Source of the DNA: a virus
Direction: 5' to 3' (one strand)
Length of the DNA: 20,428 bases
IMG/VR virus record: IMGVR_UViG_3300035698_017859
Location: 1 to 20,428 of that record
Shown here: positions 3,715-20,428 of the stretch, piece by piece
Position numbering within the stretch: the first letter of the stretch is position 1
How the letters are laid out: every line of letters begins with the position of its first letter
Made by a program: the position numbers and the translations under genes
Notes under the pieces: model-generated
Told to the model about the DNA's origin: nothing
What the model saw: only the letters and a program-made list of their open reading frames with translations
Database searches by the model: none

Positions 3715-4872
3715 TTAATCCTCCTTGAGTTCATCCGAATCTGAAGAATCTACTGTTTGAATAAGACTAGGTATTGTAATCGGATTACCTTCAGCATCCA
3801 TATCTCTGGATTTGATCGTTATTCCATCAGCAGTTAAATTATCGTCATCAAACATTCTACGGAAAGTTAAAATATTTTCTTTCTTATACTCTTCAAGTCT
3901 ATCTGGATATACAAACCCTGTCGATGTCGATACGATCTTACCTTCCATTGATATACCACCTAATTCACCGTCAATATGATTCTTAGCAACATTAACCTTA
4001 TTCTCAAAACCATAGTTAAGTTCACGTTTCTTGCTTGTTGCTGTAATTCTTTTAGTTCCGTGAGTCATAATACCACCAAAATGATAAATCAATCTTGCTC
4101 CGAAGAACCATGTTTCACCACCCTTATGTTTAATAACCTTATTCATTGAATCATACCATATCTTCTGTACGGCAATTACCGTATTCGTATATGGATTATC
4201 GACTCTCCTACTTGAAGGTATTGTGCTATTAAGTAATGACATAAACGCCTTTTCGTATGCACCAGCATTCCACATATTATTATCTGTGGTATTTTTTTCT
4301 AGTGCATTAATGGTTTTAATACAATTTAATGTACCTATCGAATCAATGATGAAACACATATCCATTGGTATATTACCTGCATCTTGTTGATCTAAATGAT
4401 AATACATACATTTCGCCAAATCCTCAATAGAAGCTTCTTTCCTTTCCTTATCTTGGAGTTTTCCATAACGTTCAAGCAAATCAGTATTATGTATTAAAAT
4501 ATAATTACCACCCCAATCAAATCCCATTTCAGTTAATCTTAAATTACCTTCATCGATATTATTTTCAGTATCGATGATAATTGGTAATAGACCCATTTTC
4601 TGAGCATTAACGATGGCTTTCATAATCGCAGTTGATTTACCTGTATTACTATAACCACGACATAGGTTTACGTATCCTTTAGCAAATCCGGGTAATCCAG
4701 TTGCTTCTTGTAATGCATCATCACAAGGTATCCATTGCAAAGGTTTTGAAGCAACTGCTTCAGTACCAGTTTTCTTTTTAAAATCGTTTAACGAAAATTT
4801 CTTTTTCGGTGTTGGTGCTGGTTTACGTGCTTTATCATTATTAGGCACATTACTATCTGTTTTTTTTACCAT
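3715..4872 (-). CDS. uvsX: UvsX-type RecA-like recombinase
   Basis: This 385-aa ATPase should coat single-stranded DNA and carry out strand exchange for recombination-dependent replication and repair, working with gp32. Visible motifs: a basic N-terminal tail (1-35), Walker A GYSNTGKST (73-81), DTEN with the probable catalytic Glu (E103), Walker B CFIIDSIG (173-180), and an L2-like segment around VAQKIWYD with a Gly-Gly pair (KGGETWFFGA). The C-terminus is acidic (DSSDSDELKED), as in RecA/UvsX, where such tails moderate DNA binding. T4 UvsX is of similar length (about 390 aa). The gene starts 21 nt after the 107-aa gene and is followed within 3 nt by the RNase H gene, so they are probably one operon. 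The leader lacks a Shine-Dalgarno. The UvsX assignment rests on fold motifs plus the gp32/gp41/RNase H neighbours. Confidence 0.9.
   Translation of the reverse strand: MVKKTDSNVPNNDKARKPAPTPKKKFSLNDFKKKTGTEAVASKPLQWIPCDDALQEATGLPGFAKGYVNLCRGYSNTGKSTAIMKAIVNAQKMGLLPIIIDTENNIDEGNLRLTEMGFDWGGNYILIHNTDLLERYGKLQDKERKEASIEDLAKCMYYHLDQQDAGNIPMDMCFIIDSIGTLNCIKTINALEKNTTDNNMWNAGAYEKAFMSLLNSTIPSSRRVDNPYTNTVIAVQKIWYDSMNKVIKHKGGETWFFGARLIYHFGGIMTHGTKRITATSKKRELNYGFENKVNVAKNHIDGELGGISMEGKIVSTSTGFVYPDRLEEYKKENILTFRRMFDDDNLTADGITIKSRDMDAEGNPITIPSLIQTVDSSDSDELKED
3720..3726 (-). promoter_or_regulatory. Strong Shine-Dalgarno for the RNase H gene, inside the end of uvsX
   Basis: On the minus strand the sequence reads AAGGAGG, 8 nt before the ATG at 3711. 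It overlaps the last uvsX codons (Lys-Glu-Asp). Other genes here start behind A/T-rich leaders with no comparable site. Confidence 0.75.
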
Positions 4873-5313: not shown

Positions 5314-6582
5314 TTAGAAAGGCAAATCATCGAAATCGTCAGATTCCTCTGATTCCTCATTAGTAGTATCAGGAATGTTTGCAGCAGGAGGTTCATTTGC
5401 TGGCTCTGGTTTGACTTCCGTCTTAACAGGTGGAGCAACAGGAATTTCCTTACTCATATCACTAGCATCATCAGTATATGTACCAACAAGCTTAGATGTC
5501 ATCTTACCTACACTAAGATCAGAGGCTTGTTCAAAATTCTCTTGTCGATCTTCAAGATCACGACTACGATTATTTGCAGCTTCCTCTAATTCTGGGTGAT
5601 TCGGAAATACCCATTTTTTATTATCGGAATCAGTATCGTCCCAAAACGGTGAATTACCTTCAACCAATAAGTCTAAATACCTTAATGGTGTGATTAGAGG
5701 TGCTTGTTTAGGTTTGAATACATCTCTCCATGTCATCTCATCAGCAACCCATTGGTTTGCGATTAACGAATCTTGATGTAAGGGTGATTTACCTTTATAA
5801 GTGATAGCTGAAATAGTCTTATAAACTCTACCATTAAACTCACTATCAGTCATGGTAATACTCAAATCAGTACCAACATAAGGGTCAGAAAAGTCTGCAC
5901 TTTGGTTTGTCATATAATCTTCTAGAATTGGAAGTAGCTTGTCTAAAGTACCTTGATTCTTAAAATTATGTTTAAATCTCCAAAACTTAACTCCATCTTT
6001 CTCTAATCCCTTATCAATACCTTTAACAATATAAAATTTCTTAGCTGCCCATTTAATGGCTTCTTTGTAAATTTTATCATTCTTATCATTAATCTTTAAT
6101 TCAGAAGCAGTCATATTATCTTTTTTCTTGCCTCGAAGAGATTGATCTTGCTTTTTCAATTCCGCTTTGTATTTCTCACATAAAGGACACGGAGCAGGTA
6201 TCATTACAGGATTACTTCCCTGATCTACCATAGGTTCTCCATTACCATCCATTCTCTGGACTTTAGGGTCGTTATGCGCAGGGCAATAAACTATTGATCC
6301 ATACTTTTGCTTACGTTTTTTTTTTCCGTTCTCCTCTGTTATAAATCCGGGCATGTTAGTTGCTACTGCCTGAAAAAATGCTTCTTCAATGTGCTTACGA
6401 CCTTTCTTTGGTGGAAGGATTCTGAATGTTTCTTTGGCTTGACGAGGAACGAAATATTTCGCTAAGATTTCTTCTTTAGTCTTCCTCGTGTTAGTTTGTG
6501 TTTGCTTTTTCTGATAATCAGAAAACATGCTTTTTAAATCTTGTAAATCGCCAGTTGCGTTTACGTTTTTTTCTTCACTCAT
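5314..6582 (-). CDS. 32: gp32-like single-stranded DNA-binding protein with zinc site and bacterial SSB-like C-terminal tip
   Basis: This 422-aa protein should bind single-stranded DNA cooperatively at the fork and organise polymerase, recombinase and helicase loading. Residues 1-40 are a charged N-terminal arm of the kind gp32 uses for cooperativity. The core has a zinc site: C100 and H103 (VYCPAH), then C132 and C135 (PCPLC). This is a variant spacing of the T4 gp32 His/Cys3 ligands. Aromatic/basic stretches such as KFYIVKGIDKGLEKDGVKFWRF (about 182-203) suit an OB fold. After about 370 comes a Pro/Glu-rich linker, and the protein ends in ESDDFDDLPF. T4 gp32 is 301 aa, so this one is long, mostly in the linker. 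It is flanked by a predicted promoter and terminators on both sides, implying a single-gene transcript. No Shine-Dalgarno is seen; the start is chosen because it gives the full N-terminal arm. Confidence 0.92.
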   Translation of the reverse strand: MSEEKNVNATGDLQDLKSMFSDYQKKQTQTNTRKTKEEILAKYFVPRQAKETFRILPPKKGRKHIEEAFFQAVATNMPGFITEENGKKKRKQKYGSIVYCPAHNDPKVQRMDGNGEPMVDQGSNPVMIPAPCPLCEKYKAELKKQDQSLRGKKKDNMTASELKINDKNDKIYKEAIKWAAKKFYIVKGIDKGLEKDGVKFWRFKHNFKNQGTLDKLLPILEDYMTNQSADFSDPYVGTDLSITMTDSEFNGRVYKTISAITYKGKSPLHQDSLIANQWVADEMTWRDVFKPKQAPLITPLRYLDLLVEGNSPFWDDTDSDNKKWVFPNHPELEEAANNRSRDLEDRQENFEQASDLSVGKMTSKLVGTYTDDASDMSKEIPVAPPVKTEVKPEPANEPPAANIPDTTNEESEESDDFDDLPF

Positions 6583-6731: not shown

Positions 6732-9566
6732 CTAAAAGACACATTCTTTTAATCTAATAGCAGCAATTGAAGCATAATCAATACTTGTAACAGCTCCTGC
6801 ACATACATCAACTATCACAGTACCATCAACATTAGGACAGAAATCTGTATAGGATGCAAGATTAGTTACATTACTATTACCATCTAATGGTTGTGTTGAA
6901 ACATATGGAGCACCAGCACAAATACCGCAAACAGTATAAATATTATTTTGAGTAACATAACCCTTACTACCTATTATATCCATATCGTAACATTTTGAAA
7001 CATCTAAATTATTAAATGTTAATTGACCAACACTAGTAGTTGAAAAATTATCTCTATTCGCTGAAGCTAAGAAAACACCATCACTATTTGAACCCTGAGT
7101 CCCAGCACATCCGAACGGTGCGGTTACACATATATTATATGTATATCCAGTACCGCCAACATTATCACAGAAAGTATTGGATGTAAGCCCTGTCGGTACT
7201 TCAACTCCTGTCGAATAATAAATATTATTATATGATGGTGTTGTATATCCACCTAAATCAGCACCAATATCAAGGTAAAAGGTATTATATGATGAAAATT
7301 CAATACTGTCAGATAATACTGGACTAATAGTCTCATCTACATTTTTTACTTTTAAGTAAATTGTTTTTATTCCCTCACCCGATGATAAGGTGAATGTCAT
7401 TGCAGATTGGGATGTAGCGGCACTCCAAGTTTCACCAGCAAATGAAGAACTTTCAGATACCATATAATAAGTAATTACGTCATTTGCAGTATAATATAAC
7501 GTTACATTAGTACTTGTGGTTAATTTTGTAGTTGCACTTGAATTTATATAAAAATCAAGTAATCTCATCTCTGTAATACTCGATTTTCTAAATGCTGAGT
7601 AAGCGCCTTGCCATTTACCGAAATCATTCCAATTGTAGAAACCTCTCATATCAAAATCACTACCAATTACCATTCCTTTATCAACTAATGATGATCTCGA
7701 TGAAATTCTATAATCCCTTTCAACTAAATCAGCTAGAGCATATTGTTGAGCAATACCATCAGTAATAAAAACATTAGAATCAGTGCCTTGATCGTTTAAA
7801 ACATTATTAGCCCATGATAGCATTGCAGAACCGCCCATACCACTAAAGTAGTTAGTCTTTTGAAGTATACTATTAACATTATACACTAACGCACCTTCCT
7901 TACCTAAACCTCTACTAAATTTTACAAGATTATTATTAACATGAACATTGAAATGTTGTATAACATTTTGGGCTTGTACAAATGATCCGCTAGTACTAAT
8001 TGTCGTATTATTATATATAAGATGTGGAGCATAATCTGGTGGGTTTACAGTAACACCAGTAATTACCTCAGAAGATAATATTAACATTGCTGGTTGTCCA
8101 ACACCTAACTCTGTAATTAAATTATTATATACACTAATGCCAGAAATTGTTCCAAACTGTATTCCCAAACCACCAGAATCAATCATAATATTATTATAAA
8201 TCTCACCATCTAATGTAGTTGACATGAATGTTGCCTGATCCTGTACTGGAAATGTTGCCCCACTTAAAAATTCATTATAACATACCTCACAAAAACCATT
8301 AGTATTATTTAACTGGAATGAATCCCATCCATTTCTATGGAATTTATTTCTATAGATTTTTGCATCTACAAATTCATGAGGAAAATAATAAGTTGGAGTA
8401 GGACCATATAAATATGTAATTTTAGGAGTATTACTAAAATAACCTATGTAATTACCTTCAGAACTCGTATCTCTAAACTTACAATGATGTTCAATCCAAT
8501 TATAAAATTGTGTCATGTTTCCTCTCCACGTAGATGGATCATCTGCATGTGGGTCTGTTTTATTAGACATACCAGCAAATGTCGCAAATGAACATTCAAC
8601 ACCAAATATTTGAACATCGGTAGATTTACCACCCATCTGAAAGTTTACTTGACAAGTATCGGCAGTTGATGATTTTGTCAGATGTAAGCCATATTCTAAA
8701 TTATTATAACCCATACCATCAAAAATAACGTGATGGAAATCCTCAAAATAGGTGGTATACCATGAATCTCCTTGAATTTCTAATGGCGTAGTACCGCTAA
8801 CCGTAATAATAATGGGTTGTTCACTAGTACCTGAAAGATGTTGAATCCTTAATCTAGTTGATACATCATCAGTATAACCAGTGCTTCTTGTTAGAACTAA
8901 TGTTGTACCGGGAGCTATTCCTGCTGAAAAATCAAATACTTGCCAACCATTATTTAATACAAGCGCAGTAGCAGCAGATAACGGTGGTAATGGGTGTGAA
9001 ACACTTATTAATTTCTTTTCAATCCTACCTATACTATTTCCTGAAGTAGTTACGTATAATTCCACATCAAAAATGCCTGTAGTATTGAATGTATGTGATA
9101 CTGATTGAGCACTATAACTCACATATGGCGTTGTTTCATTCTGTCTATATATATTAAATAGAAAGGTAGGTGTAGCACCTACAACAGTATTTAATGTTTC
9201 CGCAGAAAAATTAACAGTATCACCGCTTCTTATAACTTCTTTATCCACAACAATATCAGCATAAACATTTTCTAATACATATGTCGGATATATTCCCTTG
9301 CTAACAGTATCAGAACTTACAGCATTTGATGTTGTTAATGATTCTGGAGCATCTCTAATTACTGCTATTGTAACACTAGCACCAGAAGTTGATGCTGTTG
9401 TTGTAACACCTGATGTACCATCACTTACCGTCCATAAATCAGTATCTGATTCAATTGACGTATTTGTAAAAGTAACCACATCTCCAAGAAATGGAAAATA
9501 ATCACTTGAAATAAAACTAGCAATTGTTTTTCTTTGTTTAATTAAAATTTTATCATCGAATATCAT
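6732..9566 (-). CDS. Tail-fibre/spike protein: PKD-like domains, right-handed beta-helix, Ig-like domain and cysteine-rich C-terminal domain
   Basis: This 944-aa protein is probably an outer tail fibre or spike that touches the host surface. Two PKD/Ig-like segments lie at about 20-71 and 102-190, the second with SGDTVNFSA and FNTTGIFDVELYV. A right-handed beta-helix follows (about 205-650), with Asn-rich turn motifs (KIYRNKFHRNGWDSFQLNN, EIYNNIMIDSGGLGIQF) and an end motif DYRISSRSSLVDKG. An Ig-like domain (about 664-760, YYMVSESSSFAGETW and KTIYLKVKN) also occurs in the 899-aa neighbour. The last 184 residues start at YLDIGADLGGY and contain nine cysteines. They resemble a beta-sandwich domain I associate with Bacteroidota extracellular proteins, and could be the receptor-binding tip. 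No catalytic residues could be assigned. It lacks the N-terminal domain of its neighbours, lies 12 nt downstream of the 899-aa gene, and is the last gene before a terminator. Confidence 0.8.
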   Translation of the reverse strand: MIFDDKILIKQRKTIASFISSDYFPFLGDVVTFTNTSIESDTDLWTVSDGTSGVTTTASTSGASVTIAVIRDAPESLTTSNAVSSDTVSKGIYPTYVLENVYADIVVDKEVIRSGDTVNFSAETLNTVVGATPTFLFNIYRQNETTPYVSYSAQSVSHTFNTTGIFDVELYVTTSGNSIGRIEKKLISVSHPLPPLSAATALVLNNGWQVFDFSAGIAPGTTLVLTRSTGYTDDVSTRLRIQHLSGTSEQPIIITVSGTTPLEIQGDSWYTTYFEDFHHVIFDGMGYNNLEYGLHLTKSSTADTCQVNFQMGGKSTDVQIFGVECSFATFAGMSNKTDPHADDPSTWRGNMTQFYNWIEHHCKFRDTSSEGNYIGYFSNTPKITYLYGPTPTYYFPHEFVDAKIYRNKFHRNGWDSFQLNNTNGFCEVCYNEFLSGATFPVQDQATFMSTTLDGEIYNNIMIDSGGLGIQFGTISGISVYNNLITELGVGQPAMLILSSEVITGVTVNPPDYAPHLIYNNTTISTSGSFVQAQNVIQHFNVHVNNNLVKFSRGLGKEGALVYNVNSILQKTNYFSGMGGSAMLSWANNVLNDQGTDSNVFITDGIAQQYALADLVERDYRISSRSSLVDKGMVIGSDFDMRGFYNWNDFGKWQGAYSAFRKSSITEMRLLDFYINSSATTKLTTSTNVTLYYTANDVITYYMVSESSSFAGETWSAATSQSAMTFTLSSGEGIKTIYLKVKNVDETISPVLSDSIEFSSYNTFYLDIGADLGGYTTPSYNNIYYSTGVEVPTGLTSNTFCDNVGGTGYTYNICVTAPFGCAGTQGSNSDGVFLASANRDNFSTTSVGQLTFNNLDVSKCYDMDIIGSKGYVTQNNIYTVCGICAGAPYVSTQPLDGNSNVTNLASYTDFCPNVDGTVIVDVCAGAVTSIDYASIAAIRLKECVF

Positions 9567-9578
9567 CTTTTATATTTT

Positions 9579-12278
9579 TTAAATTTCTGTTATTTCAATA
9601 TCATATAATGCGTTAGAATCCCACCTACCGTCTGGTAGTAAATTTGATTCTAAACTAAATAAACCGCTTCTCCCTAAAATAGTAGTAAAAACACTAGTCT
9701 CATCAGCCTTTCTCATGATCATCTTATAAAATTGATCTCTATCGGGATTAGTGCTATCAATATATAATTCCTCGGTTGAATTAGTAATTAGTTGAGTATC
9801 TTGTGTTGACGTTCCTCCAGTTGAAAGATCGGTTATTTGAAACGTAATGCCTGTAGGTGACTCATCTATTGCAGTATAGTCGTACCCATAAGCTCCAACA
9901 TAATCTGTCGAACCCGTTGAATATGTAAAATCATATGTATTATGTGTAGTTCCTGTTAATCCAGTATATGATAAACATGTAGTAGAACCTAAAAGATTTA
10001 ATGAATAATCTCTTACTCCTAGATTAGTAAATATATACGAATATAGATCAATAACCTTTGAATGTAAATCCCATCCATTTGATTGCATTTCACTTAATGT
10101 ATCTATAAATCTAGCACTAACAGGACTTTCCGTATCATCAGCAATTCCCAAAAAGTCAGTATTTATTAAATCATTATCAAGAGTAACATCCATATAAATA
10201 TTATTATCAGAATTATATTCACCTACCCAATCACAATCCCAAATAAACCCACCTGTACTATTACCTGCATATGCACCGTAGTTTAATCTTATTATATTAT
10301 TATAAAAATTAATAGTTTGATTTTGATTCAAATAACCAAAGAATAGTGTTTCGTATTGTTTTCCATCACCTTGTGCTTCAATAGTATTTGAAAGAACATT
10401 AAGTTCTCCAATATCAGTAGTCATATCCAGAATAGTCCCCTTATTATAACTATATTCAGGACTATTAAAATTATTGTAAAAAACATTAGATATTAAATTT
10501 AAATAAATAGTTGGTATTGACGCTGCTATTACGATTGCTAAACTCCCAAAATTAAAGATTTTATTTCTTCGAATATCTATTCTTTGAGCATCTAATATCA
10601 TACAGCCTTCCCAACCATTACTACCATCAAAAGTATTGTCTTTAATTGTTAAAAGATTACAAGAAAGGGCATAAAGATGAGAAGGTTTACCAATTAGCAT
10701 TGTATAAATACCTGAGAAGCTATTATTAATAATAGTTGCGTTATCAATTCCATTCACATCAACAATACGTGTAGCGATATTAGTAAATGTACAGTTACTT
10801 ACGGTATAGTTAGTACAGAATGCCGCTTTTACCCCATAAATACCATAACGAGGGTCGCCTCCTGTGGTATAGTTAAGCCCATCAATTGTACAATTATCAA
10901 TGATAATATTATCTGACACATTTACTGTACTACCTACCACAACAATAGCACCTAACTCTTCAGGCATACTTCTTTGTGCCTTAGAACCTGCCTTAATGTA
11001 ATTACAATTCTTTACATGTATATTATCTGAATTTTGTATATAAAAACCTCCTAAATCATCACAGTCTAAAGTATATAATCCCTGTCCGTCAACGGTTAGT
11101 ACATATTCAGTACCCTTATTAAAGTCTTTAACTCTATATGTGAAATACTCCACAGTATTTGATTCCACTAATGTCGCATTAACATAAACCCTCACATCTT
11201 GAGTAAGTCCTGAAGGATAATCATGATCAACAGCTTCTAGAGCATCCCTAACAGTGCCATATTTTGTCACAACATCACTTCTAAAAACACCTTGAGTAAA
11301 CGTTACTGTATCTGACTGAACATCACTCTCACCAAAGACATTCTTTAATTTAAGATATACTGTTTTTGTAATATCAGAAATGAATGGGAAATTATAATTA
11401 ATTGTTCCACCGTCATATGCTTCCCACGTAGCGCCTATAAAATCTATACTATTAGATAACATATATTCTGTCGGCACGTTATCATAATCTAATACTATTG
11501 GTACATCAGGCATTGCTGAATCAGCACCTCCATTAATTATTATTGAGTTCAGTACTGGTGGTGCTGATATTGCATATGCAGTATCTAATAAATATGAAGT
11601 ACCTTCAACTAACGTAAATTCAGGTATAATACCAGTGGTTGGATTATAAGTAGGAAAAATATCAGCATTATTTAATGTTAAACCAGTTGGAGAATAACCC
11701 GCACTAGGCGTTATTTTAATAGTATAATTACCTCCATCTAATGTTGTATAAACAATACTATCAGTAGAAGTAATGTCAGATACAGTATTACCTGATGCAT
11801 CTAGAAATCTATATACATTACCTGCAAAATTATTTCCATCGTAGGTTGAATTCATACCAAATAATATACTTCCAGACCCCATTAATGTATCTAGTGCTTG
11901 TTTTACTGAATATTGATTATATGTTACAAAATCCGATCTTAATTGACCGCTAAAAGATAAACTTTCTAATAATGATACAACATCACTAGCACCCATTGCA
12001 ACTTTAAAGTGGGCATCTGTATTACCGCCCTTAAATGTATATCTTTGATATGTAAAGCCTGTTTGACCATTTATGAAATCAGGTATAGGAAAACTACCCG
12101 AAGGTTGTAACATTATAACCTCTTCGCCTTGTTTTCTAACGCCCATAACTATATCAGCTAAATATTCTTCTTTTGTCTTAACTATAACAGACGCACCACT
12201 CTGATAATAATTTGATTTATAATTATCTAATGTTGCAAGACTTGATAAAAATAGTTGATCATTTAATTCTATTGCCAT
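9579..12278 (-). CDS. Tail-fibre/spike protein: shared N-terminal domain, Ig-like domain and pectate-lyase-like beta-helix
   Basis: This 899-aa protein begins with a domain of about 130 residues (LNDQL, LDNYKSNYYQSGA, TKEEYLADI, GEEVIMLQPSGSFP, KGGNTDAHFK) also present in the 279-aa and 2129-aa neighbours. That domain is probably a common tail-attachment module. Residues 136-240 are beta-rich and unassigned. An Ig-like domain (about 242-328, EYMLSNSIDFIGATW, KTVYLKLKNVFGES) is shared with the 944-aa protein. From about 330 to 770 there is a right-handed beta-helix with turn-rich rungs (NIHVKNCNYI, NIIIDNCTIDGL, YTVSNCTFTNI, LLTIKDNTFDGS). After VGAYGYDYT the last 115 residues form a separate beta domain ending DGRWDSNALYDIEITEI. 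A polysaccharide-binding or depolymerase role is plausible for such helices, but no active site can be named. The start is supported by alignment with the paralogues. Confidence 0.8.
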   Translation of the reverse strand: MAIELNDQLFLSSLATLDNYKSNYYQSGASVIVKTKEEYLADIVMGVRKQGEEVIMLQPSGSFPIPDFINGQTGFTYQRYTFKGGNTDAHFKVAMGASDVVSLLESLSFSGQLRSDFVTYNQYSVKQALDTLMGSGSILFGMNSTYDGNNFAGNVYRFLDASGNTVSDITSTDSIVYTTLDGGNYTIKITPSAGYSPTGLTLNNADIFPTYNPTTGIIPEFTLVEGTSYLLDTAYAISAPPVLNSIIINGGADSAMPDVPIVLDYDNVPTEYMLSNSIDFIGATWEAYDGGTINYNFPFISDITKTVYLKLKNVFGESDVQSDTVTFTQGVFRSDVVTKYGTVRDALEAVDHDYPSGLTQDVRVYVNATLVESNTVEYFTYRVKDFNKGTEYVLTVDGQGLYTLDCDDLGGFYIQNSDNIHVKNCNYIKAGSKAQRSMPEELGAIVVVGSTVNVSDNIIIDNCTIDGLNYTTGGDPRYGIYGVKAAFCTNYTVSNCTFTNIATRIVDVNGIDNATIINNSFSGIYTMLIGKPSHLYALSCNLLTIKDNTFDGSNGWEGCMILDAQRIDIRRNKIFNFGSLAIVIAASIPTIYLNLISNVFYNNFNSPEYSYNKGTILDMTTDIGELNVLSNTIEAQGDGKQYETLFFGYLNQNQTINFYNNIIRLNYGAYAGNSTGGFIWDCDWVGEYNSDNNIYMDVTLDNDLINTDFLGIADDTESPVSARFIDTLSEMQSNGWDLHSKVIDLYSYIFTNLGVRDYSLNLLGSTTCLSYTGLTGTTHNTYDFTYSTGSTDYVGAYGYDYTAIDESPTGITFQITDLSTGGTSTQDTQLITNSTEELYIDSTNPDRDQFYKMIMRKADETSVFTTILGRSGLFSLESNLLPDGRWDSNALYDIEITEI
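12058..12110 (-). repeat. 53-bp perfect repeat, copy 1 (N-terminal domain of the 899-aa protein)
   Basis: This stretch is identical, base for base, to 12907-12959. It encodes the end of the PSGSFPIPDFINGQTGF segment. Identity at synonymous sites, within otherwise diverged paralogues, points to recent duplication or gene conversion. Confidence 0.9.
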
Positions 12279-12290
12279 TTTTTTATGTTT

Positions 12291-13130
12291 TTATGATGTT
12301 ATATATAATTTAAATATGATTGGAGAAGTCGTTGTATCCATAATATCTGTTTTTAATAATATAGTATTTGTTATTCCTCCTTGGTCGTATGTTCCAACAG
12401 AACTAAATAAACTGGTTATGTTTGAATTTATTCCATTTGTAATTGTTAAACTACTCACTTTCGCACTAGGTACTGTTATATAAAACCAGTTCTGATTATA
12501 ATTATCTAGTGTGATTAAACTACCTGCATCAAATTCAATTAAACTATCCTCTGCATATGTTAATGGAGTATATCCAGTAGTTGGAGTTGTACTTGCAGCA
12601 TCGCTAGTGTATCGATGACCTATAAAATAACTAGGTGCTGCGGTTGTCGTTGTTGTCGTAGCTAACGTTGTTGTTGTTGTCGTAGCTAATGTTGTTGTAG
12701 TCGTTGTAGATGCCGTAAGATGATAACTAAATAAGATATCAAGTGCTTCTTCTACTGAATACTCATTATATGTTATGTTATCTGACCTTAATTGACCACT
12801 AAACGGTAAGGTTTGCATTAACGATATAATGTCGTCACCATCTATTGCAAGTTTAAAATGAACATCACTATTACCACCTCTAAAAGTATATATCTCGTGA
12901 GTAAATCCTGTTTGACCATTTATGAAATCAGGTATAGGAAAACTACCCGAAGGTTGTAAGATTATAACCTCCTCACCCTGTTTTCTAATACTTAAACTAA
13001 TATCAGCTAAATATTCTTCTTTCGTCCTAACTATAACAGTTGCACCACTCTGATAAAAATTCGATTTGTAATTATCTAACGCACCTAAACTTTTTACAAG
13101 CAATTGATCATTTAATCTTATTGTTCCCAT
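12291..13130 (-). CDS. Short tail-fibre protein: shared N-terminal domain, poly-Thr linker and shared C-terminal domain
   Basis: This 279-aa protein joins both exchangeable ends of the locus with little between. Residues 1-135 are the N-terminal domain shared with the 899- and 2129-aa proteins (LNDQLL, LDNYKSNFYQSGA, TKEEYLADI, PSGSFPIPDFINGQTGF). Residues 138-166 are a threonine linker (LATTTTTT units ending in AAP). Residues 167-279 match the C-terminal domain of the 157-aa protein and of the truncated gene at the window edge (GHRYTSD; GYTPLTYAEDSLIE; YNQNWFYITVPSAKVSS; ITSLFSSVGTYDQGGI; ILLKTD). It is probably a minimal fibre or adaptor. No enzyme motif, signal peptide or membrane segment is seen. 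It lies 12 nt before the 899-aa gene and 27 nt after the 2129-aa gene, so it is probably co-transcribed with both. Confidence 0.8.
   Translation of the reverse strand: MGTIRLNDQLLVKSLGALDNYKSNFYQSGATVIVRTKEEYLADISLSIRKQGEEVIILQPSGSFPIPDFINGQTGFTHEIYTFRGGNSDVHFKLAIDGDDIISLMQTLPFSGQLRSDNITYNEYSVEEALDILFSYHLTASTTTTTTLATTTTTTLATTTTTTAAPSYFIGHRYTSDAASTTPTTGYTPLTYAEDSLIEFDAGSLITLDNYNQNWFYITVPSAKVSSLTITNGINSNITSLFSSVGTYDQGGITNTILLKTDIMDTTTSPIIFKLYITS
12633..12719 (-). repeat. Threonine-codon repeat encoding a poly-Thr linker
   Basis: The stretch is an imperfect trinucleotide array of Thr codons interrupted twice by Leu-Ala, giving LATTTTTT units and a final AAP. It separates the two domains of the 279-aa protein. 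Such arrays change length easily by slippage without breaking the frame. Confidence 0.85.
12907..12959 (-). repeat. 53-bp perfect repeat, copy 2 (N-terminal domain of the 279-aa protein)
   Basis: Identical to 12058-12110 and in the same orientation, 849 bp away. The surrounding sequence is similar but diverged. Recombination between the two copies would fuse the 279-aa N-terminus to the 899-aa body. Confidence 0.9.
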
Positions 13131-13157: not shown

Positions 13158-16100
13158 TTAAACTGCATCAATTATTGATATAGTATTGGAGTATCTAAGA
13201 CCTATACTATTTCTCGCAAATGCTCTAATAAAATACGTACCTCCTAAATCAGTTACCGTATCAGTAAATACTCCCTTATATGCACCAACCTTATAAATCA
13301 CACTAGCATTCTCAATAGTAGGAGTTGAATTTGTTGAAACTGCGAATCCTCTTTGATAAACATGAGAACCTTCTTCACTAGTAACCTCACATGTAACATC
13401 AACAGTACTTCCACCATCAACAAATGTTAATGTTGCCAAAACTGGAAGTCCTCTGGCTGTATCACATATAGGATAATCCCATTCCCTACCAAAACCAGTA
13501 TGTAAACGAGGTAGACTATATAAATTCCATTCTAATCCATCCTCAGTACCCTCCCTATTTACTGTCAAATTAGTGCCAAACTCGTTCACAGCAAAACCTT
13601 CTGCTTGTCCCAGTAAGGAATTACCGGGAATGGCGGTTTGTGATATTGAACGTAAATATGTTGCTGATTTATTTGAATAATCATATTCATGGTATGAATT
13701 AGTATTTCCACCTCCATCTACATAACTAATAACATATAATCTATTAGTGTATGAACAATATGCGAAACCACTAGATTTACCTTCCTGATAGTTATATTCG
13801 GTAGGGAGGTTATTCGGTATGTAATCCATAAACGAAGGTATCAACTGATGTTTAGCGTGACTTCCCCGTATTCTTGTATTGAATTTAGTAGTTCCTGAAA
13901 ATATGTCATCTAATTCTAAAAAGCTAGATAAGTCTTGTTGTTCACTTTGAAATATTATGCCTCGTAATATTGGATCATATAGGAACGCCTCATCTTTATT
14001 ACTGGATGCGTCAGCTAATACAATCCTATACTTACTGTCATTATCTGGATTAATGACAGTAGTGCCTCCACTAAGTGTTGCATCTAACTTTACTATCCAT
14101 ATCAAATGTCTAGTACTTTCATGCATAATCACAAAATAACCATTTCCTAAATATTGTATTTCTTCGTGATCACTCCAAGAAGTTGTAGGTTCAACTGGTG
14201 ATACTGCACCTATGTCATGCTCTATAGAATATTTATGTATTAACGATGGTGATGGTTGATTAACGTCATAAACCCCAATACGACCAGTATTAGCGGGAAC
14301 ATTCGGAGTACCGCATCTATCACCCATACTATAGTAATAACCGTTATCCCAATTATAACATGCACCTGAACCATATGTATAGCCATCGTCAACACCTCGT
14401 TCATTCTTCACATAGGTTATATTATCGAACGTTTTGGTTGACCTCCAAGCAGCTTTAGTAGTGTTGGTAGCATCCTCAGAATAATAACCAGCATCTTCAT
14501 TGATATATATTTTCACATAATAAGTAGTGTCGTCAACCAACCCTGTAATAGTATCATTATAAGTACCGTTGCCAGTACCTAACAATATATCAGTACTACT
14601 AGAAAAATCTGAATTTACTGAATATCTAATATATGCATTTGAAGCAATATCAATACCAGCAACAATAGTATCTACTTCAATACCACCAGTAACACTCGTT
14701 GTTATAATTGATGCACTTGGTGGTGGGGGTGCTGGTTGGGTTATAACATACCATGAATCAGTATTAACTTCAGGATGACCTAATATTGGTGATGGTGTTA
14801 GTGCTATAAAATCACTACCTGTAACACCCGCAGTATCTTCAGAAGTCCACCAGAACGTAGTTCCTGAAGCGTTCGCTGTTAAACTTCCTTCATCATTAGT
14901 GCTTGCATTAATAGTTCCCACTATTTGATCTAAAAAGGTTAAGTCATTATCTGCTTCAATATGAAACTCATTTAATGTTTTCGTATCGCCATCTACTGAA
15001 TATGCGTGAACATACATTCTCCTTAAATAAGTATTTACATACATTTCATTTATTGAGCTTATAGGTAGTGTACCATTCCAAGTACCTACTATCTGACTAG
15101 TAATATCAACAGCAACCCCTAATTCAACAACACCAATACTTTGTTCTGAAACTGGAATTCTATATACTTTATTAGTGGAAGTCCCACCATAAGCAACATA
15201 AAAATAACCAATACCACCACTAGGTTTATTTCCAAAATCAAAACATATTGATGCTACTGCTCTAGATGAATATGTTATAACGTCTTGATTTAAAACAAAA
15301 TCATCTGAAGTTAGTTCTGTTTTATTTGGATTTAAATATATTATTATAATATTTGAAGTATCTTCATTAATAATAGCAACCAATCCATTACCCATATAAG
15401 TCATTGAACCCAAATTCCCTACATCGCTAAGAGCACTATCAATACTCCAACTTCTAACTGAATTAAATGTTGTTTGATTAAGCTCTCGTATCCAATTTAT
15501 CCCACCTGAACCTTGTCTTAAATATAATAACCTATCACTATCATGATCATATGTTAAACCACGAGGATTAGTGTAGTCAGCCTCTCTAATACCTTTATCT
15601 GTTGAAAATCCAATGTATGGTAAGAAACTATTACTAGCATTATAATTATATCCAGTAGAGGATATTGTGGTCGTAGTTGTATTAGGTGAAGGAATACTGG
15701 TAAAATTATACCATTCTTGATTACTAACCCCTGAATGTGTAAACAATTCAATATGGTCTAATTTACTAAAATATGTTCCCAAAGAACCAGTAATTTGACC
15801 CATGAACCAAAATGTTGATCCTAAAGGCGTTGCAGTTATACTTGTTTGAGCCGCAGAACTATAATTAACATTAGTTGATGATGATATAATACTAAGGAAC
15901 GTTAGAGTGTTGTTCGTATTTATTTGATACTCCATTACCGATCTATTCCCTATCTCAAGACCATGTATGTAAAGTCTTCTTAGATATGTGTTAACATATA
16001 TGTCTGTAATTGAAATTACATCCATATCAGTTCCAAAATTACTTAAAACTGAACTTGTAATATCTTCCACCGTATTAGATAATGTTAAATCATCATTAAC

Positions 16101-19100
16101 AGCTACACGGAATAATTCACTAGTAGTACTACTACCACCGACACTAATATAAAAATATCCAATTCCACCACTAGGTGTATTCCCAAAATCAAACGCTAAT
16201 CCTCTAGAAACTCCGCCATATGGAGTATTAAGAACTTCATTTGAAAGAAAATCAGAACTTGTTATTGTAGAACTATTTAACTCAGCAATAACAATATTAT
16301 ACGTACCTTCTTCAATCATACCAACCACACCATCACCCATAAAAACAATTGATGCTGGATTCGTAATATTATTGAGAGTCCAAATAGCTGTTGTATTAAA
16401 TGAATTACTATCAAGTGCTAATATTCTTGGAGTTGTTGAATTATCTAAAAACAATAATCTATCATTAATATGATCATATGTTAAACCACGAGGATTTTCA
16501 TAGGATGACTGATATGTACCCTCATCGCTACTAAAACCAATCAAAGGTAAGAATGGAGTGTTAGCTTCATATGTTATCTCATCAGTTTTAAGACCCGTTC
16601 CATCAAATTCATACCAAGGATCGGTACACACATCATTATGTGTGAAAACCCCAACATGATCTAATTTGATTATATTAGCATATGTATGCGTAGTATCAAC
16701 ACCCATAAACCAGAATGCTGTTCCTTCTGGAGTTGCAATTATACTACTTTCCCTACTAGTACTGAAATTTACCATGTCATTATCAATAATACTTCCAACA
16801 TAAGTTAAAGTATTATCGCTATTTATTCGATACTCAATTATTGATCTATTACTAGTCTCTAAACAATGAACATATAATCTTCTTAAATAAGTATTTACAT
16901 AACACGATGTTAACGATACAATTGTATTACCATCATGAGTAGTTAACACAGATGCTGTTAAATCAACAGAATTACCTAAACTCACAACACCACTACCATT
17001 AACTAATAGTTCAATACGATGTAAATTACTTCCACTACCATGACCATGAAGTATATAAAAATATCCAATTCCACCACTAGGTTTATTTCCAAAATCAAAA
17101 GATAATGATCTTGTTATAGTAGCAGTACTACTTATCGAAGTATTTGCGTTTAATATAAAGTCACTAGCATCATAAGTTGATGAAGTACCTGAAATATTAA
17201 CTATTATAATGTTTGCTGGAGTTTCTCCATCTAAAATAGCTAACATATCATTGCCCATATATTCTATTGACTTAGCAGAAGCTATATCAGTAATGGTAAA
17301 GGAACGTTCTGAAGAAAATGATGTTTCATTTAGAACAACTATTTCAGTTGGAGTAGTATCTTTCAGCAATAATATTTTACTATTATCATGATCGTATGTT
17401 ATTGCTCGTGCGTCAGCATTTGTTGTCTGAGTTCCTGAATCGCTTGAAAAACCAATAGAAAATGCGAACGAATAATTAGTATCATATCCATCCAGAACAG
17501 TAGTACGATCATAATAATTTTCTGTTTTCACACCTGCAATAGTCCATACACCGTTATTATCATAACGCCACTTCTCTAATCTAAATGTAGATTCTGATCC
17601 ATTAAATTTATGAAGATTAAGCCATGACTGATTATCACCATAATATTGAAAATAAACAGCATTAATATTAGGAACATATTGATTATCTTGATAAGTATAT
17701 GCCCCGCTAAGACCTCCTCCAATATAATACGTATTGCTTTGTACTCCTAATGCATATCGACTAAATGCCATATGTTCCCAATCCTTATATATTGGATCGA
17801 TAGTACCATACCCATTCCAAGGCTGGAATATGTAATTCCAATGCACATGTCCTGATAAGGATGCGCATACTTTCATCGTATGCAGTAATGAAACCATTTC
17901 ATCTCTACCAGCAGTATACATATCAAGCGAATCTCCTTCATGTCCAAGTACAAGATCAGGTTCTTCTGTTGTTACGGCAAAATCTTCAAGATAATTACCG
18001 AAAGGAAAATAAGGTTCATGACCCACTAAAACAATTTGTCTTCCTTCTGAAGAAGAACCCGCCATTTCACGAACAAACTCAATCATGTGAGGCACTATCT
18101 GACCACTAGTGTTATTACCTGCTAATGGAGTATCGAGTAATCCGCTTCCCGCATACGCATTTAATACGATAATCCTTACTGTATCAAAATCTACGGCATA
18201 TGTAGTTTTACTAACTTCACTACTGCCATTATAATACCAACTAGCACTTGTCCCCGTTACAGGTACAGTTCTATGATATAATGGCGTGAAATTATTAAAA
18301 TAACCACTAATGTTTGCACTAACAAAAGATTGTGAAGTTTCGAAGAAAAAGTTTGATTCTGTTGTACGATGTAATTCAATCGATAAATAATTCCAACCAG
18401 TAACTAAATTATCGGCACTTATTATAGCAAGATTATTATTATATGACGTAGAGATTGCTTCAGTACTGCTTATAACAGTTGTAGGTAAATTTACCTTTAG
18501 CTTTTCTATACCGTTAATATTTAAAATAAATCCACCTAACATGTTATAGTCGAATCTAATATCACTAACTAAAGATGCATCATAAACCCAAAATTTCTTT
18601 CTTAAATATGTCGTTATGGGACAATTACCTGCACCATCTTCAACACTTAAATTATGTCTAGAACCATTAACATTCCACGATAAGCTAGTAGGTATATATC
18701 TCCAAGCACTATCATCATAATTATTATCGATCCAAACACCAGATGGTTCAGACGGTGATAATAACCATGCGTTTCTATCAGTAAATGATATTATATTACC
18801 ACCAGTCGTTCTATTGTTTATCCAATCAGTCACATCTAATTCATCTCTCATATTTTGTAAAACAGCACCAATAGTAACATCCTGTTCATAAGTCCCACTA
18901 GGACTAGGTGAATCAAACATATCATGATTACCGGGAGCTGCTAATAAACGAGCACCTTCAACACCAGCACTACTACCACCTAAAATATTTACCATATCAT
19001 TAAGTACGTCTATATAAAAACCCTCACCATCAGCAAAATCACCAGCACCTAAAATATGGCTAATCGTTTGATCTCTATGTAATTCGCCTATACCAGCTAA

Positions 19101-19547
19101 AGTACGTTCTGGAGATACATGTACATCATTAATTTGAACGAAATTATATGAATCAGTACCTAACGGTGCTTGTGTGGTTGTTGGTGTAGGTGATGTTGTC
19201 TGATTTAATGCCAGATTAAGAGCTTCTTCTATCGTATATTCAACATCATTATATGTTATACTATCCTTTATAAAATGAGCATCACTATTACCACCCTTAA
19301 ATCGGTACTTCTGATATGTAAATCCGCTAGGATTACCAAAAAACTCGCTTAGAGGATATGTGCCTGAAGGTGTTAAAAATATAATTTCTTCACCCGGTCT
19401 TCTATAAGTTAATGAAATCCTAATTAAATATTCTTCTTCTGTCTCGATTTTAATACTAGCTCCTTCTTTTCTATAATTACATTTATATGAATCTAAACTG
19501 CTCGGTGAAAGCAAAAAAATCTCATCTGATATGTTAGTTCTTCCCAT
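13158..19547 (-). CDS. Giant 2129-aa tail adhesin with metallophosphoesterase domain, jelly-roll insert, propeller-like repeats and FN3-like domains
   Basis: Residues 1-113 are the N-terminal domain shared with two downstream tail proteins, followed by a Pro/Thr linker (116-130). A calcineurin-like metallophosphoesterase occupies about 131-245 and 445-615 with every metal-ligand motif: D141-x-H143, G-D170-F-A-D173, G-N207-H208-D, H510 (VGHEP) and H567-x-H569 (SGHVHW). Between its halves (about 250-425) sits a jelly-roll-like insert (DDSAW, TTYLRKKFWV, LNINGIEKLKVNLP). Three tandem units follow (about 698-985, 1003-1285, 1310-1602), each with IGFSxDxG, YDHxxxxLLxL, FDFGNxPSGGIGYFY, YVNTYLRRxYxH and a final W-Y. 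Then come an FN3-like domain (about 1608-1700), a divergent fourth propeller-like region (about 1702-2025) and a terminal domain ending GGTYFIRAFARNSIG. It is probably a long fibre or adhesin that binds, and may dephosphorylate or cleave phosphodiesters in, host surface glycans. The activity is inferred. The start is supported by its paralogues. Confidence 0.85.
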   Translation of the reverse strand: MGRTNISDEIFLLSPSSLDSYKCNYRKEGASIKIETEEEYLIRISLTYRRPGEEIIFLTPSGTYPLSEFFGNPSGFTYQKYRFKGGNSDAHFIKDSITYNDVEYTIEEALNLALNQTTSPTPTTTQAPLGTDSYNFVQINDVHVSPERTLAGIGELHRDQTISHILGAGDFADGEGFYIDVLNDMVNILGGSSAGVEGARLLAAPGNHDMFDSPSPSGTYEQDVTIGAVLQNMRDELDVTDWINNRTTGGNIISFTDRNAWLLSPSEPSGVWIDNNYDDSAWRYIPTSLSWNVNGSRHNLSVEDGAGNCPITTYLRKKFWVYDASLVSDIRFDYNMLGGFILNINGIEKLKVNLPTTVISSTEAISTSYNNNLAIISADNLVTGWNYLSIELHRTTESNFFFETSQSFVSANISGYFNNFTPLYHRTVPVTGTSASWYYNGSSEVSKTTYAVDFDTVRIIVLNAYAGSGLLDTPLAGNNTSGQIVPHMIEFVREMAGSSSEGRQIVLVGHEPYFPFGNYLEDFAVTTEEPDLVLGHEGDSLDMYTAGRDEMVSLLHTMKVCASLSGHVHWNYIFQPWNGYGTIDPIYKDWEHMAFSRYALGVQSNTYYIGGGLSGAYTYQDNQYVPNINAVYFQYYGDNQSWLNLHKFNGSESTFRLEKWRYDNNGVWTIAGVKTENYYDRTTVLDGYDTNYSFAFSIGFSSDSGTQTTNADARAITYDHDNSKILLLKDTTPTEIVVLNETSFSSERSFTITDIASAKSIEYMGNDMLAILDGETPANIIIVNISGTSSTYDASDFILNANTSISSTATITRSLSFDFGNKPSGGIGYFYILHGHGSGSNLHRIELLVNGSGVVSLGNSVDLTASVLTTHDGNTIVSLTSCYVNTYLRRLYVHCLETSNRSIIEYRINSDNTLTYVGSIIDNDMVNFSTSRESSIIATPEGTAFWFMGVDTTHTYANIIKLDHVGVFTHNDVCTDPWYEFDGTGLKTDEITYEANTPFLPLIGFSSDEGTYQSSYENPRGLTYDHINDRLLFLDNSTTPRILALDSNSFNTTAIWTLNNITNPASIVFMGDGVVGMIEEGTYNIVIAELNSSTITSSDFLSNEVLNTPYGGVSRGLAFDFGNTPSGGIGYFYISVGGSSTTSELFRVAVNDDLTLSNTVEDITSSVLSNFGTDMDVISITDIYVNTYLRRLYIHGLEIGNRSVMEYQINTNNTLTFLSIISSSTNVNYSSAAQTSITATPLGSTFWFMGQITGSLGTYFSKLDHIELFTHSGVSNQEWYNFTSIPSPNTTTTTISSTGYNYNASNSFLPYIGFSTDKGIREADYTNPRGLTYDHDSDRLLYLRQGSGGINWIRELNQTTFNSVRSWSIDSALSDVGNLGSMTYMGNGLVAIINEDTSNIIIIYLNPNKTELTSDDFVLNQDVITYSSRAVASICFDFGNKPSGGIGYFYVAYGGTSTNKVYRIPVSEQSIGVVELGVAVDITSQIVGTWNGTLPISSINEMYVNTYLRRMYVHAYSVDGDTKTLNEFHIEADNDLTFLDQIVGTINASTNDEGSLTANASGTTFWWTSEDTAGVTGSDFIALTPSPILGHPEVNTDSWYVITQPAPPPPSASIITTSVTGGIEVDTIVAGIDIASNAYIRYSVNSDFSSSTDILLGTGNGTYNDTITGLVDDTTYYVKIYINEDAGYYSEDATNTTKAAWRSTKTFDNITYVKNERGVDDGYTYGSGACYNWDNGYYYSMGDRCGTPNVPANTGRIGVYDVNQPSPSLIHKYSIEHDIGAVSPVEPTTSWSDHEEIQYLGNGYFVIMHESTRHLIWIVKLDATLSGGTTVINPDNDSKYRIVLADASSNKDEAFLYDPILRGIIFQSEQQDLSSFLELDDIFSGTTKFNTRIRGSHAKHQLIPSFMDYIPNNLPTEYNYQEGKSSGFAYCSYTNRLYVISYVDGGGNTNSYHEYDYSNKSATYLRSISQTAIPGNSLLGQAEGFAVNEFGTNLTVNREGTEDGLEWNLYSLPRLHTGFGREWDYPICDTARGLPVLATLTFVDGGSTVDVTCEVTSEEGSHVYQRGFAVSTNSTPTIENASVIYKVGAYKGVFTDTVTDLGGTYFIRAFARNSIGLRYSNTISIIDAV
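14742..17456 (-). repeat. Three tandem ~300-residue coding repeats (propeller-like) in the giant adhesin
   Basis: The units span about 17456-16593, 16541-15693 and 15620-14742. Each keeps the same order of motifs over about 285 residues (RGLTYDH or equivalent, FDFGN-PSGGIGYFY, YVNTYLRR, FWFMG or equivalent). The DNA has diverged outside these motifs, so the duplications are older than the perfect repeats elsewhere in the locus. The second and third units are separated by a Thr-rich linker (1287-1298). Confidence 0.85.
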
Positions 19548-19605: not shown

Positions 19606-20079
19606 TTATGATATTGTTAACCAATATAAAAATGATGTATTACTTATTATCTGATCAGTCTTTCTTAATATACTATTTTCTACCCCACTAACATCATATG
19701 TTCCAACAACAGCAAATAAACTAGTTATATCAAAATTAGCTTCATTTTTAATTAATATACTACTTACTTTTGAACTAGGTATTGATATGAAAAACCAATT
19801 ATAATCATAAGTCGTTGGTGTTAAATAAATATCAGTATTGATTTCAATAAGCGTATCTTCTACATACGTTAATGTTGTATAACCTGAAGTAGGTGTATCA
19901 CCACTATAAACCTGATGACCTAAATAATTAGTAGGTGCTTGAGTAGTCGGTGTTGGTACAACACTACTTGCTGCTGCCGTTGATACTATTCGAGTAACAT
20001 TATTACTTTCTCTTTGTGATTCGGTCAAATCATTTTCACGAAATTTAACTTGTGGTGATCTAAATGTGAATTTTTTCAT
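19606..20079 (-). CDS. 157-aa tail-associated protein: sheath-like N-terminal peptide, Pro/Thr linker and shared C-terminal domain
   Basis: The N-terminus (MKKFTFRSPQVKFRENDLT) resembles the SPGV-x-x-x-E-x-D-L-T arm at the start of contractile-tail sheath proteins, but the rest is unrelated to sheath. A Ser/Ala/Pro/Thr linker (about 33-50, VPTPTTQAPT) leads to a beta-rich domain of about 105 residues (GYTTLTYVEDTLIE, YNWFFISIPSSKVSS, SLFAVVGTYDVSG, SILRKTD). The same domain ends the 279-aa protein and the truncated gene at the window edge. It has no catalytic motif and no signal peptide. A tail-surface decoration or fibre-tip protein is a reasonable guess from the architecture and neighbours. 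It lies 67 nt after the preceding gene and 58 nt before the giant adhesin gene. The start is the only ATG that includes the RSPQV peptide. Confidence 0.75.
   Translation of the reverse strand: MKKFTFRSPQVKFRENDLTESQRESNNVTRIVSTAAASSVVPTPTTQAPTNYLGHQVYSGDTPTSGYTTLTYVEDTLIEINTDIYLTPTTYDYNWFFISIPSSKVSSILIKNEANFDITSLFAVVGTYDVSGVENSILRKTDQIISNTSFLYWLTIS
19765..19884 (-). repeat. Perfect direct repeat of at least 120 bp, copy 1
   Basis: Identical to 20309-20428 at every base compared, at an offset of 544 bp and in the same orientation. It encodes the GYTTLTYVEDTLIE to SIPSSKV core of the shared C-terminal domain in the 157-aa protein. The second copy runs off the window, so the true length is unknown. 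Confidence 0.93.
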
Positions 20080-20146: not shown

Positions 20147-20428
20147 CTATGATTCAATAAAAATATTGAACAGATATGACGAACTACTTGATATTTGATC
20201 CGTTTTTCTTAATATACTATTTGATATTCCTCCAGCATCATATGTTCCAACCACAGGAAATTCATCAGTAATGTTATTATTAAATTCATTTCTAATTACA
20301 ATAGCACCTACTTTTGAACTAGGTATTGATATGAAAAACCAATTATAATCATAAGTCGTTGGTGTTAAATAAATATCAGTATTGATTTCAATAAGCGTAT
20401 CTTCTACATACGTTAATGTTGTATAACC
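20147..20428 (-). CDS. Partial gene, C-terminal 93 residues: paralogue of the shared tail C-terminal domain
   Basis: An open frame enters from the right edge and ends in TAG at 20147-20149. Its 93 codons translate to a domain nearly identical, over the first 40 residues, to the 157-aa protein (GYTTLTYVEDTLIE, YDYNWFFISIPSSKV). It then diverges (AIVIRNEFNNNITDEF, VVGTYDAGGISNSILRKTD) and ends SSSSSYLFNIFIES. It is therefore at least a third copy of this domain in the locus. The N-terminal part is outside the window, so whether it also carries the sheath-like peptide cannot be told. The gap of 67 nt to the next gene contains no clear terminator or promoter. Confidence 0.85.
   Translation of the reverse strand, partial: GYTTLTYVEDTLIEINTDIYLTPTTYDYNWFFISIPSSKVGAIVIRNEFNNNITDEFPVVGTYDAGGISNSILRKTDQISSSSSYLFNIFIES
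20309..20428 (-). repeat. Perfect direct repeat of at least 120 bp, copy 2 (continues past the window edge)
   Basis: Matches 19765-19884 with no difference seen, including third codon positions. Sequence left of 20309 is similar in protein but clearly diverged in DNA. That sharp boundary is typical of gene conversion or a recent recombination junction. Confidence 0.93.

Follow-up and report, generated by a model that had tools for sequence, protein, structure and literature searches.

The 20,428-nucleotide stretch of viral DNA analysed here (the window; IMG/VR record IMGVR_UViG_3300035698_017859, a 20-kb metagenomic fragment) encodes on its minus strand a giant adhesin-like protein of 2129 amino acids, in which a metallophosphoesterase (MPE) of the calcineurin-like type is split by a nested jelly-roll module. 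The explanation which we consider best, and hold to be rather probable, is that this protein would be a tail adhesin of a large T4-like phage, whose phosphoesterase attacks a phosphate-bearing glycan on the surface of a Bacteroidota-type host. At the level of sequence, the protein exhibits an MPE in which no metal ligand is missing, the jelly-roll nested within it, an N-terminal module common to sister proteins and a counterpart in a second viral contig. The frame runs uninterrupted from ATG to stop, and is organized as follows:

13158..19547, minus strand: the 2129-amino-acid adhesin-like protein with MPE, an open frame with Pfam Metallophos and SdiA-regulated matches.
19218..19547, minus strand: N-terminal module, residues 1-110, putative virion anchor (41-46% identity to the N-termini of two neighbours).
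19167..19214, minus strand: Thr/Pro-rich linker, residues 112-127, recognised in the sequence.
18798..19157, minus strand: N-terminal half of the MPE, residues 131-250, with DVH, GDFAD and GNHD (PF00149 profile positions 2-108).
18303..18797, minus strand: inserted jelly-roll module, residues ~251-415 (hidden Markov model, HMM, match at 253-411; homologous to a secreted Bacteroidota/PVC module).
17532..18302, minus strand: C-terminal half of the MPE, residues ~416-672, with VGHEP, GHVH and the C-terminal strands (profile match at residues 440-570; alignment with the second viral protein, L245, through GLSGAY).
16593..17480, minus strand: propeller-like repeat 1, SdiA-regulated type (PF06977 alone E=0.0011, below cut-off).
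15693..16556, minus strand: propeller-like repeat 2 (PF06977 alone E=0.0034, below cut-off).
14742..15632, minus strand: propeller-like repeat 3 (PF06977 alone E=0.0075, below cut-off).
13458..14450, minus strand: propeller-like domain 4, divergent (PF06977 E=2e-4, 21.1 bits, at cut-off).

The MPE is recognised by Pfam Metallophos (PF00149) both in the whole protein (31.9 bits, E=2.3e-7, cut-off 21.5) and in the isolated domain (36.4 bits, E=9.3e-9, in two stretches). Its motifs are NDVHV (140-144), GDFAD (169-173), GNHD (206-209), VGHEP (508-512) and GHVH (566-569), and all eight canonical metal-site and catalytic residues of the family are kept: D141, H143, D170, N207, H208, H510, H567 and H569. 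Moreover, a profile built from secreted cellular MPEs (A6) gives 40.9 bits over residues 440-570, the best of 1000 shuffled domains reaching 5.0 bits. The match is thus more than chance, on account of the PF00149 score, the A6 profile against its shuffles and the BLASTP alignment with an independent viral protein described below. An earlier, sequence-only reading of this DNA had proposed a complete calcineurin-like MPE inside a tail-adhesin-like protein: the motifs do lie where it had placed them and catalysis appears plausible from them, the adhesin label coming from gene context. The domain end that it had set at residue 615 has to be moved to ~672, the interruption at ~251-415 being added, and the jelly-roll, the four propeller-like domains and the common N-terminal module had been overlooked.

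The MPE fold might also be non-catalytic, the jelly-roll, the MPE scaffold and the propellers together offering a receptor-binding surface. The protein does consist mostly of beta-rich non-catalytic modules, and some proteins of this fold, such as VPS29, bind metal weakly and act as scaffolds (PMC3101248); however, the eight residues have been kept despite high divergence, the corresponding motifs are kept in L245 as well, and some cellular relatives do lose a residue (D-x-R at motif I in L199, L200 and L214). This surface-only explanation is considered unlikely.

Regarding the type of phosphoesterase, DxH and GDxxD are phosphodiesterase-type motifs, and purple acid phosphatases (PAP) are characterized by DxG and GDxxY, the tyrosine being a tyrosinate ligand. 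The phage MPE has D-V-H and GDFAD, lacking the D-x-G and GDxxY of the acid phosphatases, and carries the DxH motif and the dinuclear ligand set that define the GpdQ/ASM-like phosphodiesterase group. A phosphodiesterase is therefore likelier than an acid phosphatase, with monoester activity also possible, and the enzyme is probably to be classed as the former. Among solved structures, the profile of the cellular MPE relatives matched purple acid phosphatase (2.6e-13), the SMPDL3A phosphodiesterase (3.7e-6) and the GpdQ-type phosphohydrolase 2zo9 (1e-4). Pfam gives Metallophos on the window protein and neither a GDPD domain nor a PhoD match (PF09423), the latter being present in ORF22 of phage P1312, discussed below.

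Most MPEs of phages are either SbcD-like or nucleotide enzymes (PMC7824862, PMC10054541, PMC6893835), and the pattern PGNHDMF retrieved 33 loci in IMG/VR, all of them in frames of 107-436 amino acids, most SbcD-like by eye and none in a giant protein. Such data would agree with a cytoplasmic phage MPE, either of the SbcD/Mre11 type or an anti-defence nucleotidase, that became joined to adhesin domains by accident. Nevertheless, the window protein is neither a stand-alone nor an SbcC-linked SbcD-like protein, its sequence relatives are secreted PAP/GpdQ-like enzymes, and the nested jelly-roll is a module of secreted proteins: an accidental fusion of this kind is very improbable.

The jelly-roll, of ~160 amino acids (residues ~251-415), lies between motif III (GNHD) and motif IV (GHEP), so that GNH and GHEP are 302 amino acids apart in the window protein versus ~91 in secreted Bacteroidota/Acidobacteria MPEs, the halves of the enzyme being ~200 amino acids wider apart than in these relatives. 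By BLASTP and HMM, the insertion matches a module that secreted proteins of Bacteroidota, Verrucomicrobiota and Planctomycetota have beside MPEs, and that exhibits in its cellular copies the features ITTYFRKxF, DDGAVVYLNGxEV and NVLAVEVHQ. Its best matches among solved structures (sialate esterase, 0.026; GH2 beta-galactosidase, 0.053; rhamnosidase, 0.73) and in Pfam (CBM-like, 0.044) all fall below significance, and for this reason the fold is deduced rather than read; taken together, they point to a carbohydrate-binding-type jelly-roll. For the one jelly-roll of the tandem type that was tested, no significant Pfam model was found.

The survey of cellular relatives covered 395 Bacteroidota, 289 Verrucomicrobiota, 294 Planctomycetota and 139 Acidobacteriota genomes, as well as 140 from the order of a Flavobacteriales metagenome-assembled genome; only the best loci were fetched, and rarer nested cellular cases are possible. 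Among the 78 open reading frames (ORFs) with the C-terminal half of the MPE (~75 cellular; the count includes the window and L245, counted twice), 27 also contain the jelly-roll. In every cellular ORF having both, the jelly-roll stands before or after the MPE, nesting being confined to the two phage proteins; likewise, the gap between GNHx and the C-terminal half is 221 and 212 amino acids in these two and at most 52 in the ~75 cellular ORFs fetched. The nearest cellular MPEs are secreted Bacteroidota/Acidobacteria proteins (L199, L200, L214, L103), 28-34% identical in the C-terminal half and collinear with it through ETTYxFD...GHEP...GHxH; they differ in being 300-410 amino acids long, outside tails and without the insertion, and in having D-x-R at motif I and GDxDP at motif II. 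The same two modules are united in one chain in tandem secreted proteins of Verrucomicrobiota, Planctomycetota and Bacteroidota (e.g. L202, L220, L275), where the jelly-roll precedes or follows the MPE and is never inserted in it, and whose MPEs are placed elsewhere in the tree. The jelly-roll-then-MPE order is common in such proteins (L202, L220, L275, L276, L283 and others).

In the tree of the C-terminal half, the two phage MPEs pair weakly (71/53), on long branches, a pairing compatible with one origin as well as with separate ones. The majority of the tandem proteins fall into a group of their own, which is supported (95/86); this speaks against the phages having simply captured a protein with jelly-roll and MPE in tandem.

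The second viral case was reached only through the jelly-roll: the scan of viral contigs with the alignment of this module returned exactly one relative, L245, on the 87.6-kb IMG/VR contig IMGVR_UViG_3300005613_000026. Pattern searches for relatives of the MPE itself found none in viral contigs, GTDB genomes, or phage and plasmid records; V-G-H-E-P-x-F-P occurred in 119 stretches of GTDB genomes, L103 alone passing the motif filter as an MPE, and the nominal phage matches to MPE and jelly-roll (MT835914, MT839322, MT836780 and MT835951) resemble bacterial fragments with the modules separate. The L245 protein, of 2459 amino acids, shows in order TDIH, GDTTSYD, GNHD, the jelly-roll, SHEPAFP and GHVH, followed by propeller repeats (Reg_prop, 3e-8). 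The nested domains of both proteins align by BLASTP (62.8 bits, E=1e-14, 28% identity), bringing together DxH, GNHD, the jelly-roll signature, HEP and GHVH. With genes for a UvsX-like recombinase, a DnaB-like helicase and a primase, the contig is very likely of phage origin, and the structural-looking neighbours of the gene contain Fn3, InlB-repeat, LamG and Ig-like domains. Hence the two proteins agree in the site at which the jelly-roll is nested, in the full motif set, in the propellers that follow and in a setting among giant structural-looking proteins; they differ in the propellers (Reg_prop in L245, SdiA-regulated in the window), in the lack of an anchor before the MPE of L245 and in that contig being a different one with replication genes of its own.

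The propeller-like part of the window protein is recognised by PF06977 in 4 stretches (E=3.6e-15 on the whole protein). Units 1-3, in tandem at 14742-17480, are 40-43% identical to one another, which suggests internal duplication within the adhesin; relatives of the propellers were not found in viral contigs.

The assignment to tail adhesins depends on the N-terminal ~110 amino acids, which recur, with 41-46% identity, in two genes just downstream. The adhesin-like neighbours are the following:

12291..13130, minus strand: 279-amino-acid protein with the common N-terminal module, by N-terminal identity.
9579..12278, minus strand: 899-amino-acid protein with the common N-terminal module and a right-handed beta-helix (Pfam Beta_helix E=1.6e-6).
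6732..9566, minus strand: 944-amino-acid adhesin-like protein with PKD-like stretches (PKD E=0.008, below cut-off), adjoining the gp32-like gene.

A shared anchor followed by differing distal parts is the pattern of tail adhesins, and the module common to the sister proteins, with exchangeable parts behind it, agrees with that pattern, the sisters themselves being presumptive tail proteins. The beta-helix tailspikes and modular tail fibres of tailed phages likewise combine, in one gene cluster, a common N-terminal module with exchangeable effector parts. The usual enzymes of tailspikes and tail fibres are glycanases, lyases and deacetylases, not phosphoesterases. Furthermore, of the proteins of related phages whose N-terminus is remotely similar, two bear PHROG domains, of tail fibre/decoration (1.3e-21) and of tail sheath (8e-113). 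Relatives of the module itself were not found in viral contigs. The window also contains three copies of a module of ~253 nucleotides, encoding ~85 amino acids in the C-terminal part of short adhesin-like proteins (12323-12575, 19632-19884 and 20176-20428); two of them are 87% identical. The last nucleotide of the third copy is also that of the contig, which may reflect a break of the assembly within this repeat.

The same cluster bears on whether the protein might be a free enzyme, not part of the virion, released from infected or lysed cells for phosphate scavenging or for hindering superinfection, for instance. Its nearest MPE relatives are indeed secreted cellular MPEs, phage MPEs, of the SbcD type or otherwise, are not as a rule structural proteins, and secretion was proposed by the authors who annotated ORF22 of Thermobifida phage P1312 as a phosphodiesterase (PMC4569894). 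The window protein, however, shares its N-terminal module with beta-helix and other adhesin-like neighbours, its gene is tightly clustered with theirs, and no typical signal peptide is seen in it by eye; a released enzyme is thus, in our judgement, improbable.

P1312 ORF22 (ALA06393.1) is also a precedent for a tail-linked enzyme of this superfamily. It is a protein of 1096 amino acids with a PhoD-like domain (PF09423, 4e-14) and no PF00149 match, a CBM-like stretch, and a C-terminal part resembling a Streptomyces phage minor tail protein. As in the window protein, a calcineurin-superfamily phosphoesterase is accompanied by a carbohydrate-binding-type domain, and the gene adjoins a tail gene, so that joining an MPE-superfamily enzyme to a phage tail protein already has a precedent; unlike it, ORF22 is PhoD-like, shows no nested jelly-roll and belongs to a phage of a Gram-positive host with polyglycerolphosphate in its wall. 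The tail phosphodiesterases of enterococcal phages, which are GDPD tail-associated lysins (PMC10194240), similarly act on a phosphate-bearing surface polymer, but they belong to the GDPD family rather than to the calcineurin-like one, and their targets are teichoic acids of Gram-positives. Both examples agree with the remark in the sequence-only reading that enzymes of this activity on tails are known chiefly from teichoic-acid-binding phages, whose hosts are Gram-positive. Within the literature and sequence collections searched, the combination of PF00149 enzyme and nested jelly-roll, in a phage with a probable Gram-negative host, is new.

The remaining genes and the related contigs place the window in its genomic context:

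5314..6582, minus strand: gp32-like single-strand-binding protein, 50-61% identical to the gene before uvsX in most related viral contigs.
3715..4872, minus strand: UvsX-like recombinase (phrog_97, E=5e-11), 61-72% identical in related viral contigs.

The gp32-like protein has no significant Pfam or PHROG match and is named by position. Related viral contigs keep the order gp32-like/uvsX/RNaseH-like/helicase, with a gene of ~471 amino acids beside gp32, wherever that side is covered, in place of the adhesin block; they have large proteins after the helicase, whose N-termini are remotely alignable to those of the window. In a 321-kb relative, a type IX secretion signal domain (CHU_C) and Fib_succ_major domains suggest a Bacteroidota host; this is probably also the host of the window phage, judging from these relatives. 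A Gram-negative host, as had been supposed from the window alone, fits with both domains and with the nearest cellular MPEs, which include secreted Bacteroidota proteins. CHU_C, a Bacteroidota surface-protein domain (E=2.4e-8), is located together with TTTVEP linkers on a probable structural protein (L037:18690-19787).

None of the three MPE matches of the 321-kb relative is a tail protein: they are a 225-amino-acid frame, a phage protein of 497 amino acids, and a single frame of 1137 amino acids that joins an SbcD-like MPE to an SbcC-like ATPase (L037:5940-9353). A 420-amino-acid protein with the look of a trypsin-like peptidase (GGDSGSAL) lies inside its giant structural cluster (L039:13671-14930). 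As for the helicases, that of the window has in-frame short repeats at its C-terminus (150-480; IEENNIEENNIENPKI, EKPIEKPI), unusual for the DnaB type, and those of related contigs (L015:3159-6164, L016:12295-15300, L027:3033-6026) reach ~1000 amino acids, ~300 of which form an insertion behind residue 224 that is likely to be an intein or homing element.

Several results weigh against a catalytic tail adhesin. The N-terminal module gives nothing significant by hmmsearch against the relatives, and its hhalign match to the adhesin-like N-termini of related jumbo phages (P=1.8e-4, probability 49%) is a weak link to an anchor; the AlphaFold2 (AF2) models are of low confidence both for this module (pLDDT 49) and, from a single sequence, for the MPE domain (pLDDT 32). 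No tail MPE was found in the 321-kb relative, the L245 protein begins directly with the MPE, without N-terminal anchor, and those of its structural-looking neighbours that were tested gave no PHROG match. Finally, intact motifs do not prove MPE activity.

In the tail-adhesin explanation, the protein would belong to the tail fibre or tailspike class, and we infer a place for it in the virion, to which the N-terminal module would attach it as well as its two sisters of the same cluster. The two sequence halves would assemble a dinuclear-metal calcineurin-like active site around the jelly-roll, which may hold the surface glycan beside the metal site, and the four propeller-like domains likely serve binding and give reach. 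The enzyme, presumably active and with a preference for phosphodiesters, would then cut a phosphodiester (or phosphate monoester) from a phosphate-decorated capsule, lipopolysaccharide or S-layer glycan during infection, at adsorption or release. A wider proposal, which we put forward tentatively and consider somewhat less likely than not, is that of a phage-specific nested phosphodiesterase/jelly-roll/propeller tail cartridge, spread among distantly related large phages and stripping phosphate-linked decorations from Bacteroidota glycans.

Known phage tail enzymes target sugar backbones, acyl groups or peptidoglycan. A tail enzyme that strips phosphate-linked decorations in Gram-negative hosts is a class not described in the literature searched. 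Residues 128-676 constitute a ready domain for trials on bacterial surface polymers, and the succession GNHD, ~160-amino-acid jelly-roll, GHEP and GHxH provides a searchable signature for further cases. If the explanation is true, phosphate-bearing surface glycans would be a receptor or barrier that is edited by phages of probable Bacteroidota hosts.

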